From Janthinobacterium sp. 344 (lineage in GTDB: Bacteria; Pseudomonadota; Gammaproteobacteria; Burkholderiales; Burkholderiaceae_D): 64,000 nucleotides of DNA. Position 1 is the stretch's first letter. Each line of letters starts with the position of its first letter. This document shows positions 19,540 to 50,126 of the stretch, one piece after another. The notes under the pieces are model-generated. The model was not told where the DNA came from. It made no database searches and worked only from the letters and a program-made list of their open reading frames with translations. A program made the position numbers and the translations under genes. The stretch spans positions 298,762-362,761 of the forward strand of contig NZ_FOKL01000001.1 of the NCBI RefSeq assembly GCF_900112025.1, written 5' to 3'.

Positions 19540-19720
19540 GATGACTCCTAATACATAAGTTCTAAAATTTTAGCACATTCGATTAGCAAATACATGCGAA
19601 TCGAGTATCCCAGCGGCAAAGACTACCCGAAAATAGCCCGGACCGACATCGTTTATTACAATTACATTTCACTACACTTGCCATACTCGATTACTACACG
19701 CGTTTGACACGTTCTTTACT

Positions 19721-19837
19721 GGAAGCATCAACAACCTGCTGCGCGTCCCGCTATCGCCCCGGCGGCGCTCCGTACTTTCGTACGCTTGCGCTACTCAAGA
19801 CGATATCGGGCCGCTCGCTACGGTTTTTGAGACCCCC
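19721..19837 (-). repeat. Structured intergenic repeat, copy A
   Basis: Read on the minus strand it has an imperfect terminal stem (GGGGGTCTCAAAAACC against GGAAGCATCAACAACC, 11 of 16), then the left box AACCGTAGCGAGCGG, a central hairpin CGTACGAAAGTACG next to GAGTAGCGCAA, and the right box GACGCGCAGCAGGTT. The boxes match copies B, C and D. It fills most of the yceD-rpmF gap. Confidence 0.8.
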
Positions 19838-19858
19838 TACAAACTACCACTACTTAAC

Positions 19859-22064: not shown

Positions 22065-22087
22065 ACTTTGCTCAACTACGATAATTA

Positions 22088-22222
22088 CGACACCTGACAA
22101 AACCGTAGCGAGCGGAAGGGAGAGGTGGCTAAGAAGCGCAACCGTACTCAGTACGGGGGCGCCGAGCCGGTGAGCATCGCAGGCCGCCTATACCGACGCG
22201 CAGCAGGTTTGGTCAGGTGTCG
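22088..22222 (+). repeat. Structured intergenic repeat, copy B
   Basis: The 17-bp terminal inverted repeat CGACACCTGACAAAACC (22088-22104) and GGTTTGGTCAGGTGTCG (22206-22222) has one mismatch. Inside are the left box AACCGTAGCGAGCGG, AAGAAGCGCAA, a CCGTACTCAGTACGG hairpin, GGCGCCGAGCC, GCATCGCAGGCC and the right box GACGCGCAGCAGGTT. It lies between convergent genes and abuts the rlmJ stop codon. Confidence 0.85.
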
Positions 22223-23140
22223 TCAGACTCGCCGTGTTCCGGTATTCTTCTGTCCGCCCTTGCCGGTTTCCAATACAAACTTCGCGCCATCGTCGCGGCC
22301 CAGCACCTTCACCAGGTAGGGCGTGACTTCGCGCAGCATCGGCTCCAGCGTGTACGGCGGGTTCAAAATGAACATGCCGCTGCTGTGCAAACCGAAGCCG
22401 TCCGGCGACGGGGTATTCACCGTCAACGTCACGTGCAGCCAGTCCGAGCTGGGCAGTTGCTTCAGCTTGTCGGCGAACTGGCGCGATTCCATGCGCTGCA
22501 GCACCGGATACCAGACGGCGTACATGCCCGACGGGAAGCGCACGAGGGCGTCGGCCAGGGTGTCCTTGACCTTGCGGTAATCCATCTTGTCTTCGTACGG
22601 CGGGTCGATCAGCACCAGCGCGCGGCGCGATGGCGGCGGCAGCAGGGCTTTCAGGCTCTGGAAGCCGTCCGCCTTGGTGATGATGACGCGCTTGCCGCGC
22701 ACGGTCGGACGCTCGCCCTGGGCCAGCGCATGCGCCTCGACCTTGCGGAAGTTGTCGGCCAGGATTTTCGCGTCGGCCGGATGCAGCTCGAACAGGCGCA
22801 AACGGTCTTGCTCGCGGCTCACCTTGTCGGCGCAGTACGGCGAACCGGGGTAGTAGCGCATCTTGCCGCTCGGATTCATTTCCTTGATCAGCTTCATGTA
22901 CTCGGCCAGCGAGGCCGGCAAGTCCGTGCGGTCCCACAGGGGCGCGATGCCCGTTTCGTACTCGGCATTTTTCGAGGCATAACCGCCGTCGAGCGCATAC
23001 ACGCCCGCGCCGGAATGGGTATCGATATAACTATAGGCGGTATCTTTTTGATTCAGGTACTGCAACAACTGAATCTGCACATAATGCTTCAACACATCGG
23101 CGTGATTACCCGCGTGAAAAGCGTGGCGGTAACTCAACAT
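22223..23140 (-). CDS. rlmJ: 23S rRNA (adenine(2030)-N6)-methyltransferase
   Basis: RlmJ methylates A2030 of 23S rRNA. The start MLSYRHAFHAGNHADVLKH is the diagnostic N-terminus; IDTHSGAGVY binds SAM and the catalytic motif is LIDPPYEDK. It has 305 residues against 280 in E. coli; the extra is at the C-terminus (after VLGRDDGAKFVLE, rich in Gly, Lys and Thr). The stop codon touches repeat copy B. Upstream, 276 nt separate it from the divergent thioredoxin-like gene. Confidence 0.95.
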   Translation of the reverse strand: MLSYRHAFHAGNHADVLKHYVQIQLLQYLNQKDTAYSYIDTHSGAGVYALDGGYASKNAEYETGIAPLWDRTDLPASLAEYMKLIKEMNPSGKMRYYPGSPYCADKVSREQDRLRLFELHPADAKILADNFRKVEAHALAQGERPTVRGKRVIITKADGFQSLKALLPPPSRRALVLIDPPYEDKMDYRKVKDTLADALVRFPSGMYAVWYPVLQRMESRQFADKLKQLPSSDWLHVTLTVNTPSPDGFGLHSSGMFILNPPYTLEPMLREVTPYLVKVLGRDDGAKFVLETGKGGQKNTGTRRV

Positions 23141-23416
23141 AAGCTGGCTAATTCCATAATAAAAATAAACAAAGGCGGGAGCGCTGACACCGGGCAGGGC
23201 TTGAAAACAGACGGGAGAAGTCAGGCTGCGGGGCCAGGAAACAGCATGGACCAGCGTAATCAGCGCGCAATTACCAGCATTATCCACCAGAAAGGTGTAT
23301 TACATCAAAAAACACGGATAAACGAGCTCATGCATTCTCGGGACTCGGGCGGCCGGGCGCGGTAGAATACGCGCATCGGGCGCCTGGCGCCCACCAGCCC
23401 TACTAATGTATACGAC

Positions 23417-31146: not shown

Positions 31147-31176
31147 TTGACTCCAGCATGTGGATATACGTACACT
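31147..31176 (+). promoter_or_regulatory. Probable promoter of mltD
   Basis: TTGACT (31147-31152) and TACACT (31171-31176) are 18 nt apart; the start would be near 31183, about 50 nt before the ATG. The 331-bp divergent gap 30901-31231 has otherwise an AT-rich stretch (31060-31140) and no gene. Confidence 0.45.
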
Positions 31177-31231
31177 CGCTGCTGAATCATGGGTCTGTCC
31201 GATGTTTCTCCGACGACAACAATGGAACACT

Positions 31232-32644
31232 ATGCACGAAAACTCCTTTAAATCTACCGTCCTGGCGGCGTTGGCCCTGGCGCTTGCGCCCGCCCTCAGC
31301 CAGGCGTACGAAGCCGGTGTTGAGAGCGATAACGCGCCAGTCGCCGCCACCACGCCCGCCCTGATCCCGATGACTCCCCAAGTCACGGCGAAACCCCCCA
31401 CCCTCGACAACCGCCTGCAAAAGACCGACCGTCTGCTGAAAAATCTCAGCGACAATTCCGATCCGCTGCGCGAAGCCGACGTCTGGGGCCGCATCCGCAG
31501 CGGCTATGCGATTCCTGACATCAACAACCAGCTGGTGGCCAACCACGTCAACTGGTACGCCACCCGCCCCGACTACATCGCCCGCACCACGGCGCGCGCC
31601 TCGCGCTACATCTTCCACGTGGTGCAGGAACTGGAAAAGCGCGGCATGCCGACAGAACTGGCCTTGCTGCCGTTCATCGAGTCCGCCTTTAATCCACAAG
31701 CGTTCTCCAGCGCCAATGCGGCCGGCATGTGGCAATTCGTGCCCGCCACCGGACGCGACTTCAACCTCAAGCAAAACATGTTCAAGGACGAACGCCGCGG
31801 CGTGCTGGCCTCGACCGATGCGGCCCTGACGTACCTGCAGCGCCTGTATGACATGTTTGGCGACTGGCAACTGGCCCTGGCCGCCTACAACTGGGGCGAA
31901 GGCTCGGTGCAGCGCGCCATCAAGAAAAACCAGGCGCTGGGCAAGCCCACCGATTTCGAAAGCCTGGCCGACCTGATGCCGGCCGAAACGCGCAATTACG
32001 TGCCGAAGCTGCAAGCGGTGAAAAACATCATCGCCAATCCGGCCCAGTACGGCCTGACCCTGCCCGTCGTCGACAACCAGCCCTACTTCACGGCCATCGA
32101 CAAGACCAGCGACATCGACATCACCGTCGCCGCCCAGCTGGCAGAACTGTCGATGGATGAATTCAAGGCCTTGAATCCGCAATTTAACCGCCCCGTCATC
32201 ATCGGCGGCGAAAAGACCAAGATTCTGCTGCCGCAGGAAAACGCCGCCAAGTTCACCACCAACCTGGCGCAATGGGGCCATGCCTTGTCCAGCTGGACGA
32301 CGCACAAGATCACCAACGCGCGTGAACGCATCGAGACGCTGGCGTCGAAATTCGGCACCACGGCCGACGTGCTGCGCCAGGCCAACAACATTCCCCAGCG
32401 CACCCGCCTGCGTGCCGGCTCCACCATCCTCGTGCCGAAAACCTCGGCCACGATGAACAAGGACATCACCCAGGAAATCGCCGACAGCGCCACCATGCTG
32501 CTGGAAGCGGACCGCCCTGAGCGGGCCGCGAAGGCCGTGCGCCATGCCGCCAAGGGCGGCAAGGTGCAGGCCGCGCCAATTTCCCTGGTGAAACCACGCA
32601 TCCAGCGCGGCGGCGGCAACAGCCGTGCCAAGGCCCGCCATTGA
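31232..32644 (+). CDS. mltD: Membrane-bound lytic murein transglycosylase D
   Basis: A 470-residue peptidoglycan-cleaving enzyme. A signal peptide ends at ALSQA. The SLT/GH23 domain contains the catalytic Glu in LLPFIESAFNPQAFSS, then AAGMWQFVPATGR and the AYNWGEGSVQRAI motif. The C-terminal half holds LysM-type peptidoglycan-binding sequence (about 320-415). No lipobox is seen, unlike E. coli MltD, so membrane anchoring is not assured. The start MHENSFKST has a GGAAC box. A repeat element (copy D) begins 3 nt after the stop. Confidence 0.93.
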   Translation: MHENSFKSTVLAALALALAPALSQAYEAGVESDNAPVAATTPALIPMTPQVTAKPPTLDNRLQKTDRLLKNLSDNSDPLREADVWGRIRSGYAIPDINNQLVANHVNWYATRPDYIARTTARASRYIFHVVQELEKRGMPTELALLPFIESAFNPQAFSSANAAGMWQFVPATGRDFNLKQNMFKDERRGVLASTDAALTYLQRLYDMFGDWQLALAAYNWGEGSVQRAIKKNQALGKPTDFESLADLMPAETRNYVPKLQAVKNIIANPAQYGLTLPVVDNQPYFTAIDKTSDIDITVAAQLAELSMDEFKALNPQFNRPVIIGGEKTKILLPQENAAKFTTNLAQWGHALSSWTTHKITNARERIETLASKFGTTADVLRQANNIPQRTRLRAGSTILVPKTSATMNKDITQEIADSATMLLEADRPERAAKAVRHAAKGGKVQAAPISLVKPRIQRGGGNSRAKARH

Positions 32645-32647
32645 GTA

Positions 32648-32777
32648 CATCTGTCATGCGCTGCCGCGCGTCGTAATGTGCAGCCTGCGATGCCCACCGT
32701 ACTGGAAGTACGGTGGCGCATCGCAGGCCAACGGCGGCGCCGAGCCTTGCTTGCGCGCGCTACGCTTCTGTCAGATG
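32648..32777 (-). repeat. Structured intergenic repeat, copy D
   Basis: Terminal arms CATCTGTCA (32648-32656) and TGTCAGATG (32769-32777) pair with one mismatch. Read on the minus strand it shows the left box CGTAGCGCGCG, GGCGCCG, and the right box CGACGCGCGGCAG. The centre is a 21-bp stem with one bulge (32683-32703 against 32707-32728) that contains CCGTACT/AGTACGG, as in copy B. It fills most of the 242-bp mltD-fabI gap. Confidence 0.8.
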
Positions 32778-32886
32778 CCGCCAGGTCTGGCGCGTTACCA
32801 GCCTCGGACGTCCATCGGCCGCCACAGCTTTGCTGTCGCGGCCGCTTGCACATCCGCCCGACCCACCACCCCAGACAGGAGTCGTC

Positions 32887-48930: not shown

Positions 48931-49120
48931 GTATTCTCAACGGTAAGATTCAGTAAGCGTACCTTACACCGAAATCCTGTTTCCGCAATTAAAAATAGCT
49001 TAGGGAAACTGGCGCTTCCCGGGCCAAATGCCGGAATAGCGTACTCGGCTGTGCCCTGCCGTCTTTTTTCATTTGTGCTAAAGTATTGCCGCCGGTCATG
49101 TGATCGGCACAACAATACGT

Positions 49121-49378
49121 CTTCGGGGCGGGGTGCGATTCCCCACCGGCGGTAAGACCGGCAACGGTCAAGCCCGCGAGCGCTTTCCGACAAGGATAGC
49201 CATTAGTAACCGTCGCGAGCAAGCTCACTATCGGCTTGAGTAGCGCAACTGTACGAAGGTGCAGTGAGCAACGCAAAGTCGAGAGTGGGTTGCGCAGCAG
49301 GTTAATAAGGCTATCCCAGGAAAGGTCAGCAGATCCGGTGTGACTCCGGGGCCGACGGTATAGTCCGGATGAAAGAAG
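49121..49378 (+). promoter_or_regulatory. FMN riboswitch (RFN element) with an enlarged variable stem
   Basis: The conserved aptamer segments are all present and in order: GGGGCGGGGTG, TTCCCCACCGGCGGTAA, AGCCCGCGAGCG, GGTCAGCAGATCCGGTG, CTCCGGGGCCGACGGTATAG and TCCGGATG. Binding of FMN should repress ribB downstream. The variable stem between GAGCG and GGTCAGCAG is normally short; here it spans about 135 nt because a structured repeat (49194-49316) sits at its tip, closed by CTTTCC (49083+100 region: 49183-49188) pairing with GGAAAG (49319-49324). The total length is about 258 nt. About 100 nt lie between the aptamer and the ATG. Confidence 0.95.
49194..49316 (+). repeat. Structured intergenic repeat, copy C, inside the FMN riboswitch
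   Basis: Terminal stem GGATAGCC (49194-49201) with GGCTATCC (49309-49316), extended by ATTAGTAACC against GGTTAATAA. Inside are the left box AACCGTCGCGAGC, CTTGAGTAGCGCAA, a GTACGAAGGTGC loop region and the right box TTGCGCAGCAGGTT. The boxes match copies A and B. It lies in the variable stem of the aptamer in the same orientation as transcription. Confidence 0.85.
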
Positions 49379-49478
49379 ATGTGCAGTAGTGTGATGTCCC
49401 ATCGCCACGGCGATGCGGCCAGTTGCGTCTATTCGCTTGCCCTGTCGCGTTTTTCGCTGATGCGAGGAGCGTTTCACC

Positions 49479-50126
49479 ATGTTAGTCAACAGCTATACCC
49501 TGCTTTCCAACGACCTTGAAGGTCGCGTCCAATCCGCCCTGGCCGCCATGCGCGCCGGCGTGCCCGTCATCCTGCTCGACGATTTCGACCGCGAAAACGA
49601 AGCCGACCTGATCCTGTCTGCCGAGAAACTCAGCAACGAAACCATGGCCCTCCTGATCCGCGAATGCAGCGGCATCGTCTGCCTGTGCCTGCCGACGGAG
49701 GTGGTCAGCGCGCTGGAATTGCCGCCCATGTCGCCCGACAACGGCAGCCGCTACGGCACGCCGTTCACCGTCTCCATCGAAGCGCGCGACGGCGTCACGA
49801 CGGGCGTGTCGGCCGCCGACCGCGTCACCACCATCCGCGCCGCCATCGCGCCGAATGCCAAGCCGGCGGACCTGGTGCGCCCCGGCCACGTCTTCCCCCT
49901 GCGCGCCGCGCCCGGCGGCGTGCTGGAGCGCCGTGGCCACACGGAAGGCTCCGTCGACCTGTCGCGCCTGGCGGGCCTGAACCCGGCCGCCGTGCTGTGC
50001 GAGCTGATGAATCCGGACGGCACCATGATGCGCGGCGACGATATCGAGCGCTTCGCCGAACTGCATGGCATGCCCATTTTGACCATCGAAGAACTGGTGG
50101 AATGGCGCAGCAAGCACGGGCGATAA
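49479..50126 (+). CDS. ribB: 3,4-dihydroxy-2-butanone 4-phosphate synthase
   Basis: RibB converts ribulose 5-phosphate to 3,4-dihydroxy-2-butanone 4-phosphate and formate, a branch of riboflavin synthesis. The acidic metal-binding loop is [12 protein letters not shown]; other landmarks are [42 protein letters not shown] and [16 protein letters not shown]. It has 215 residues, the stand-alone form without a fused GTP cyclohydrolase II domain. GAGGAGCG precedes the ATG. Control is by the FMN riboswitch immediately upstream. The convergent MFS gene ends 4 nt away. Confidence 0.96.

Follow-up and report, generated by a model that had tools for sequence, protein, structure and literature searches.

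A predicted FMN riboswitch upstream of ribB in Janthinobacterium sp. 344 whose variable stem holds a mobile hairpin repeat

The leader of ribB in Janthinobacterium sp. 344 raises the question of how a riboswitch can come to hold a second hairpin between the two halves of its aptamer, and whether that hairpin belongs to the riboswitch or was brought in from elsewhere. We analysed the window, by which we mean the whole 64,000-nt stretch of DNA, together with the rest of the genome (G000), a sample of 40 genomes of the genus and samples of the taxonomic family. A match to the full RF00050 model sits upstream of the riboflavin gene ribB, with the conserved RFN segments present on both sides of the insert as the original prediction had it, and the leader divides into the following parts.

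49115..49384 (+): FMN riboswitch aptamer (RFN element) with insert; RF00050, 105.9 bits, model positions 1-138 of 138, gathering score 66.2
49183..49188 (+): retained base of the variable stem, 5′ side, CTTTCC; paired with 49319-49324 in folds, where relatives have their short variable stem
49193..49318 (+): interspersed hairpin element, ribB copy (49194-49316 in the original prediction); alignment A1 and covariance model R1, 115.4 bits, a score that is not independent, the ribB copy being one of the 14 model sequences
49194..49201 (+): closing stem, 5′ arm, GGATAGCC (GGATTGGC in the congener G005); sequence comparison
49208..49211 (+): AACC, conserved block in the terminal stem, partner 49300-49303; alignment A1 and pair analysis
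49300..49303 (+): GGTT, pairing with 49208-49211; alignment A1 and pair analysis
49309..49316 (+): closing stem, 3′ arm, GGCTATCC (GCCAATCC in G005); sequence comparison
49319..49324 (+): retained base of the variable stem, 3′ side, GGAAAG; predicted folds
49385..49478 (+): remaining ribB leader, containing a hairpin and a GAGGAG that by eye resembles an RBS; 36-leader alignment
49479..50126 (+): ribB, 3,4-dihydroxy-2-butanone 4-phosphate synthase; PF00926, 265.7 bits

The insert hairpin (GGATAGCC/GGCTATCC) stands on the kept base CTTTCC/GGAAAG, between the aptamer halves. A 123-nt element with these closing arms had been predicted, correct in both coordinates and arms, and it had been said to enter where the aptamer tolerates changes of length, which agrees with its position on the retained base of the variable stem. 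On sequence grounds, the ribB leader is a predicted FMN riboswitch variant that matches the whole RF00050 model and differs from that family in the mobile repeat held by its variable stem, 270 nt in all. We consider it probable that the variable stem of an ordinary predicted FMN riboswitch gained at its tip a copy of a palindromic, non-autonomous interspersed element ~125 nt long. The element is most likely a MITE-like palindromic repeat, for which we found no earlier description, its ribB copy being tolerated or domesticated within the aptamer. An Rfam scan of the window at gathering scores returned the FMN match and one tRNA, with no family for the element, and Rfam returned one tRNA only, away from the element, in 40 further element-bearing loci. 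A repeat search restricted to 49100-49400 found nothing, because the other copies lie elsewhere and the arms are mismatched.

The element recurs in the window and far beyond it. Covariance model R1, made from 14 copies (alignment A1; 13 from this genome and the one from G005), detects four copies in the 64-kb window at E < 1e-5, the ribB copy included, and the three others stand at the three places where members of the repeat family had been predicted.

19718..19839 (−): element copy in the gap between yceD (YceD, PF02620) and a gene read from the sequence that we take to be rpmF, in mRNA sense; R1, 102.0 bits
22087..22224 (+): element copy adjoining the stop codon of an rlmJ-like gene at 22223-23287 (−; PF04378); R1, 101.0 bits
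32643..32781 (−): element copy, degenerate, adjoining the stop codon of an SLT-domain gene at 31160-32644 (+; PF01464); R1, 38.0 bits, E 7.5e-7

Three more window matches to R1, at E 0.58-0.74, were taken as chance. Plain blastn with the ribB copy matched 19718-19839 well (E 1e-11, 75% identity, 96 columns) and recovered the copy at 22087-22224 as fragments only. The other copies thus align with R1 in the window, and genome-wide the model gives at least 109 matches at E <= 0.01 (best 150 of 6981 first-look candidates scored), on average one per ~59 kb, with a few pairs less than 3 kb apart and without arrays. Short (~125 nt), dispersed and mostly outside genes (92 of 99 copies called intergenic), the element is MITE-like in these respects, and its family is much larger, and its placement behind stop codons in one orientation more unusual, than the first reading of the window could reveal.

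Within the genus, the element is found in 37 of 40 genomes (E <= 1e-6; at most the best 88 candidates scored per genome), at loads from 0 to at least 88 copies per genome. Three genomes have none (G011, G023 and G037, the last two being 82-83% complete) and three have a single copy each (G003, G022 and G032). The sample of the taxonomic family covered 145 genomes in 44 genera, of which 80 and 32, respectively, carry the element (at most the best 24 candidates scored per genome), under filters that, as in the family survey of riboswitches, were stricter and lost weak matches. A blastn search (E 1e-5) of phages and plasmids, a set from which near relatives of the window may be absent, gave no element match, and a pattern scan of the contigs of named genomes, to which the same proviso applies, gave one, in what seems to be coding sequence in a myxobacterial MAG, which we attribute to chance.

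Each copy is a single long imperfect hairpin of ~125 nt with 41 pairs, in which a terminal stem is followed inward by AACC/GGTT, two internal loops, a 12-pair middle stem, a 7-pair apical stem and a small loop. In many copies the terminal stem is AACGCCTGACAAAACC with GGTTTTGTCAGGCGTT, or near forms, giving terminal inverted repeats, and this stem (helix 1) covaries; the closing stem of the ribB copy is unlike the closing stems of the other copies listed. The outer internal loop has GC-GA-GC opposite GC-GCA-GC and the inner one GC-GCA-AC opposite GU-GA-GC, and by eye the two look like the same motif in inverted form. Across the 14 model rows, many positions in or next to the loops never vary while the stems vary pairwise, with two-sided (compensatory) changes in 26 of the 41 pairs. 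Paired cells make up 93.2%, against 76.4% in shuffled alignments and at most 41.2% with partners slid, and the covariation score is 0.507, against 0.209 and at most 0.114, respectively; further pair types exceed the shuffles by little (51 against 45.2; 19 of 500 shuffles do as well). Longer copies of 136-152 nt (22087-22224, 32643-32781, L010, L011 and L013) have, by eye, an extra GGGCGCCGAGCC-type arm on one or both sides of the apical stem and look like a nested variant of the element.

Context was tabulated for 99 of the 109 matches, ten weak or unretrieved ones being omitted; the 12 of 111 aligned rows that lie outside this table are nine opposite-strand echoes, a weak neighbour (L071), a cut-off fragment repeating another copy (L084) and the G005 copy. 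The ribB-sense strand folds more stably in 90 of the 99 copies. On this strand, the predicted pairs of 101 aligned rows (the 99, L084 and the G005 copy) comprise 3415 Watson-Crick, 326 G-U and 65 A-C pairs, with inherited pairs counted many times. The better folding and these pair counts therefore point to one strand as the one with structure, whether in RNA or in single-stranded DNA.

Genes around the copies were called with a home-made program using the codon usage of 34 window ORFs, and single rows may be wrong; beside the ribB copy it erred, calling a minus-strand ORF where ribB lies. By these calls, the sense-3′ end lies at −17..+5 nt of the stop codon of an opposite-strand gene in 72 of the 92 intergenic copies, in one orientation, and at −6..+3 nt in 60 of them; the opposite end is equally close to a facing stop codon in 9 of 92 (Fisher p 2e-15, copies not being independent). 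A downstream gene in the same direction was called for 14 copies, or 15 counting the ribB copy. In the window, the rlmJ-like and SLT-domain copies (22087-22224 and 32643-32781) stand at stop codons, and the ribB and yceD-rpmF (19718-19839) copies, both in mRNA sense, are the exceptions.

Some low-copy genomes of other genera have copies at orthologous spacers within a genus, going by gene names read from the sequence. Three such genera have orthologous copies in several species, in a pstB-like/phoU-like spacer (L215-L218, L231), in a fadB-like/thiolase spacer (L225, L226, L228-L230) and behind a groEL-like gene (L214, L222). Slots behind the same stop codons in relatives hold what appear to be other hairpin repeats, e.g. 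CGTAGGTCGGATTAG... with its inverse (L170, L164, L180 and L183, orthologous sites in G034, G013, G013 and G001, respectively), as if these spots attracted several repeat families.

The element moves, as seen from filled and empty orthologous sites. Among 16 element sites of this genome, each compared in up to four congeners (60 stretches), L058 is empty in four of four relatives and L100 and L107 each in three of four; other sites are widely shared, e.g. L004, which is present in three of four. At L058 and L100, the empty allele also lacks ~14 to 17 nt next to the element, and with the left boundary thus inexact no target-site duplication was seen by eye at the empty sites.

Relatives show how unusual the ribB site is. 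Riboswitch matches were obtained in 37 of the 40 genus genomes: the match is 270 nt long in this genome and G005 only, the ribB riboswitch measures 142-155 nt in 34 others, and G032 has only part of a riboswitch, 105 nt at the end of a contig, scoring below the cut-off. In the relatives compared, the variable stem spans ~20-35 nt, without the element (34 of 38 loci fitting the search pattern). The family sample gave 44 matches in 43 of 116 genomes, 140-197 nt long apart from the 270 nt of this genome. The insert is seen in two of 74 genomes with a riboswitch match, namely 37 in the genus (one partial), which include six of the 43 from the family sample, and 37 outside it, compared by the length of the match. 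Relatives lacking the 123 nt, which the original prediction had suggested looking for, are thus at hand in the 34 other genus genomes, and the lengths of 140-197 nt in other genera agree. Since the insert is one copy of a repeat and the 270-nt form is seen in these two genomes only, it is a captured repeat and not a family-wide extension; the capture of a mobile element, as originally proposed, draws support from the repeat copies, from the filled and empty sites and from this narrow distribution. A second riboswitch of 161-162 nt occurs elsewhere in nine genomes (G008, G013, G026-G028, G031, G033, G038 and G039); two of the stretches concerned, L052 and L053, are without a ribB match.

This genome and G005 have the same insertion point, and 156 of 164 aligned positions are identical. 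Four of the eight differences form two compensatory pairs, one turns a G-U into an A-U pair, two break pairs of the fold predicted for this genome (49228 and 49290) and one is unpaired. Both compensatory pairs lie in the closing stem, where two of eight pairs changed on both sides with pairing kept: A-T to T-A at 49198 with 49312, and C-G to G-C at 49200 with 49310. The best fold of the G005 copy pairs the middle of the element differently, and from this and the two pair-breaking changes we infer that the middle is not strictly held. Identity between the two genomes is 94.3% in the insert with its stem and 92.4% in ribB. The 5′ half of the aptamer is 98.8% identical, the stretch running from its 3′ half up to the start codon 87.7%, and the 450 bases upstream 91.1%. 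Because insert and ribB diverged alike and the closing stem acquired two compensatory changes, the comparison favours a capture that is not very recent and goes back roughly as far as the split between these ribB alleles.

The idea of a recent insertion also sits badly with the sharing of the insert by two congeners that the tree of this locus keeps apart. In the ribB locus tree, which is poorly resolved and covers 26 of 36 genomes (ten distant ones left out), this genome and G005 are not grouped (AU p 0.000115), and in the alignment of 36 leaders theirs are of different types downstream of the aptamer. Repeated loss of the insert in other lineages, or else exchange of the aptamer segment by recombination, must therefore be added to the best explanation.

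Folding the leader with and without the insert, a comparison that the original prediction had proposed, left the RFN pairs unchanged: their mean predicted probability is 0.502 with the element and 0.501 without it, and the minimum-energy structure in the absence of ligand contains 14 of 28 RFN pairs in either case. The insert is thus predicted to fold independently of the aptamer; with half of the RFN pairs formed in both versions, the fold speaks for independence, not for a working aptamer. In the mechanism that we propose, the element would move through a folded single strand recognised by some enzyme, and at ribB it would have landed in, or been copied into, the one length-tolerant helix of the aptamer. 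There, a closed hairpin on the retained stem would leave the FMN-binding core free to fold, which may be why the insert was kept. The outer stem of the element would have taken over the job of the variable stem and would be held by selection for pairing.

A regulatory role for the insert itself is possible. A stronger version, in which the insert is a putative second RNA module, a hairpin that serves as a protein-binding site or an RNase substrate and gives ribB control a second input, is unlikely. At ribB the better-folding strand is the transcribed one (−59.7 against −43.7 kcal/mol), the closing stem was kept paired across several percent divergence, and the orthologous-spacer copies of other genera would suit an RNA role. 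However, the ribB insert is seen in two species only, and for 65 of the 72 copies beside a stop codon, transcription of the abutting gene yields the strand that folds less well, so that a role common to the family as RNA is not obvious.

Mobilisation of REP/BIME-like elements by a RAYT (Y1_Tnp, HUH) transposase is quite unlikely as the origin of the family. A folded single strand is a fitting substrate for an HUH enzyme. GTAG REPs are described as often supplying the stop codon to flanking ORFs (PMC3733652), and the element has GTAG or GTCG near one end in most listed copies. REPs of the GTAG/CGTC superfamilies share with the element, through the GTAG REPs, contact with stop codons, but a REP unit has 20-40 bp, whereas the element has ~125 nt and 41 pairs. 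Moreover, the ~1.5-kb flanks of the three Y1_Tnp genes of this genome contain no element (no R1 match up to E 10), Y1_Tnp and element counts over the 40 genomes are uncorrelated (Spearman 0.03, p 0.84; at most the best 88 candidates scored per genome), and G011, without an element copy, has four Y1_Tnp matches. With neither flanking elements nor a correlation of counts, RAYT mobilisation is not supported.

It is very improbable that the family consists of integron attC sites or their derivatives. An attC site is a hairpin behind a stop codon, in fixed orientation, with a recombinogenic bottom strand, one strand folding; the element resembles it in stop-codon position, single orientation and strand-specific fold, and the Vibrio repeats (VCR) are of similar length. 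However, the core sites are near chance, with GTTRRRY near one end in 5 of 99 copies and RYYYAAC close to the opposite end in 2 of 99 (2.4 and 1.7 expected from shuffled ends), the copies are dispersed at about one per 59 kb and do not form arrays, and the integron integrase model TIGR02249 scores above its cut-off in none of the 40 genomes; its weaker matches in all 40 and in all 14 controls are presumably other tyrosine recombinases. Canonical attC sites are rejected on the core sites and the lack of an integrase over the cut-off, and the searches for Y1_Tnp and integron integrases together revealed no mobilising enzyme or parent transposase. Scarcely credible, finally, is a lineage-specific extension of the riboswitch grown in place, its likeness to other copies being secondary, which could appeal to a closing stem that is unlike those of the other listed copies and covaries like a riboswitch stem, but which is refuted, unless the other copies derive from ribB, by the blocks that the insert core shares with about 100 other loci, and is also at odds with the lack of intermediate lengths, 197-270 nt, among the genus and family matches.

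Enterobacterial and Yersinia repeats offer the closest descriptions with which to compare the preferred reading, a MITE-like element captured in the variable stem. ERIC (IRU, RU-1) is described as a dispersed, palindromic, intergenic and cotranscribed repeat of 127 bp in enterobacteria whose effect depends on its orientation (PMC2229807); compared by description, it resembles the element in size, palindrome, dispersal and intergenic, cotranscribed setting. It differs in its TA ends and target duplication (PMC2229807); the element shows no duplication by eye, and its usual site is a stop codon. YPAL (RU-2) is likewise described there as a palindromic repeat of Yersinia, 168 bp long and without TA ends, recently mobile as judged from empty and filled sites, which targets positions at or beside dyad symmetry and makes target duplications of 3-26 bp (PMC2229807). 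By description it resembles the element in palindrome, lack of TA ends, mobility and targets with dyad symmetry, and differs in its length, its duplications and its hosts.

An open-access literature search with few terms, which is weak evidence of absence, gave no account of the element family or of a repeat inside a riboswitch. The broadest picture that we would draw is speculative and, as a whole, rather unlikely: a strand-specific hairpin family, widespread in one bacterial family, would insert, by way of a folded single strand and some enzyme, behind stop codons with a fixed orientation, and one copy, with its strong strand transcribed, would have been domesticated as a second structured module of an FMN riboswitch and kept by compensatory evolution. 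The layout of the element resembles attC yet lacks core sites and integrase, which points to a mobilising enzyme not yet known, and the loads of none or one copy against at least 88 among congeners form a natural contrast for finding its gene. With related species that have and lack the insert, the effect of the capture is directly testable. The usual picture of peripheral riboswitch stems is one of slow growth; in this case, a mobile repeat appears to have replaced the tip of one.
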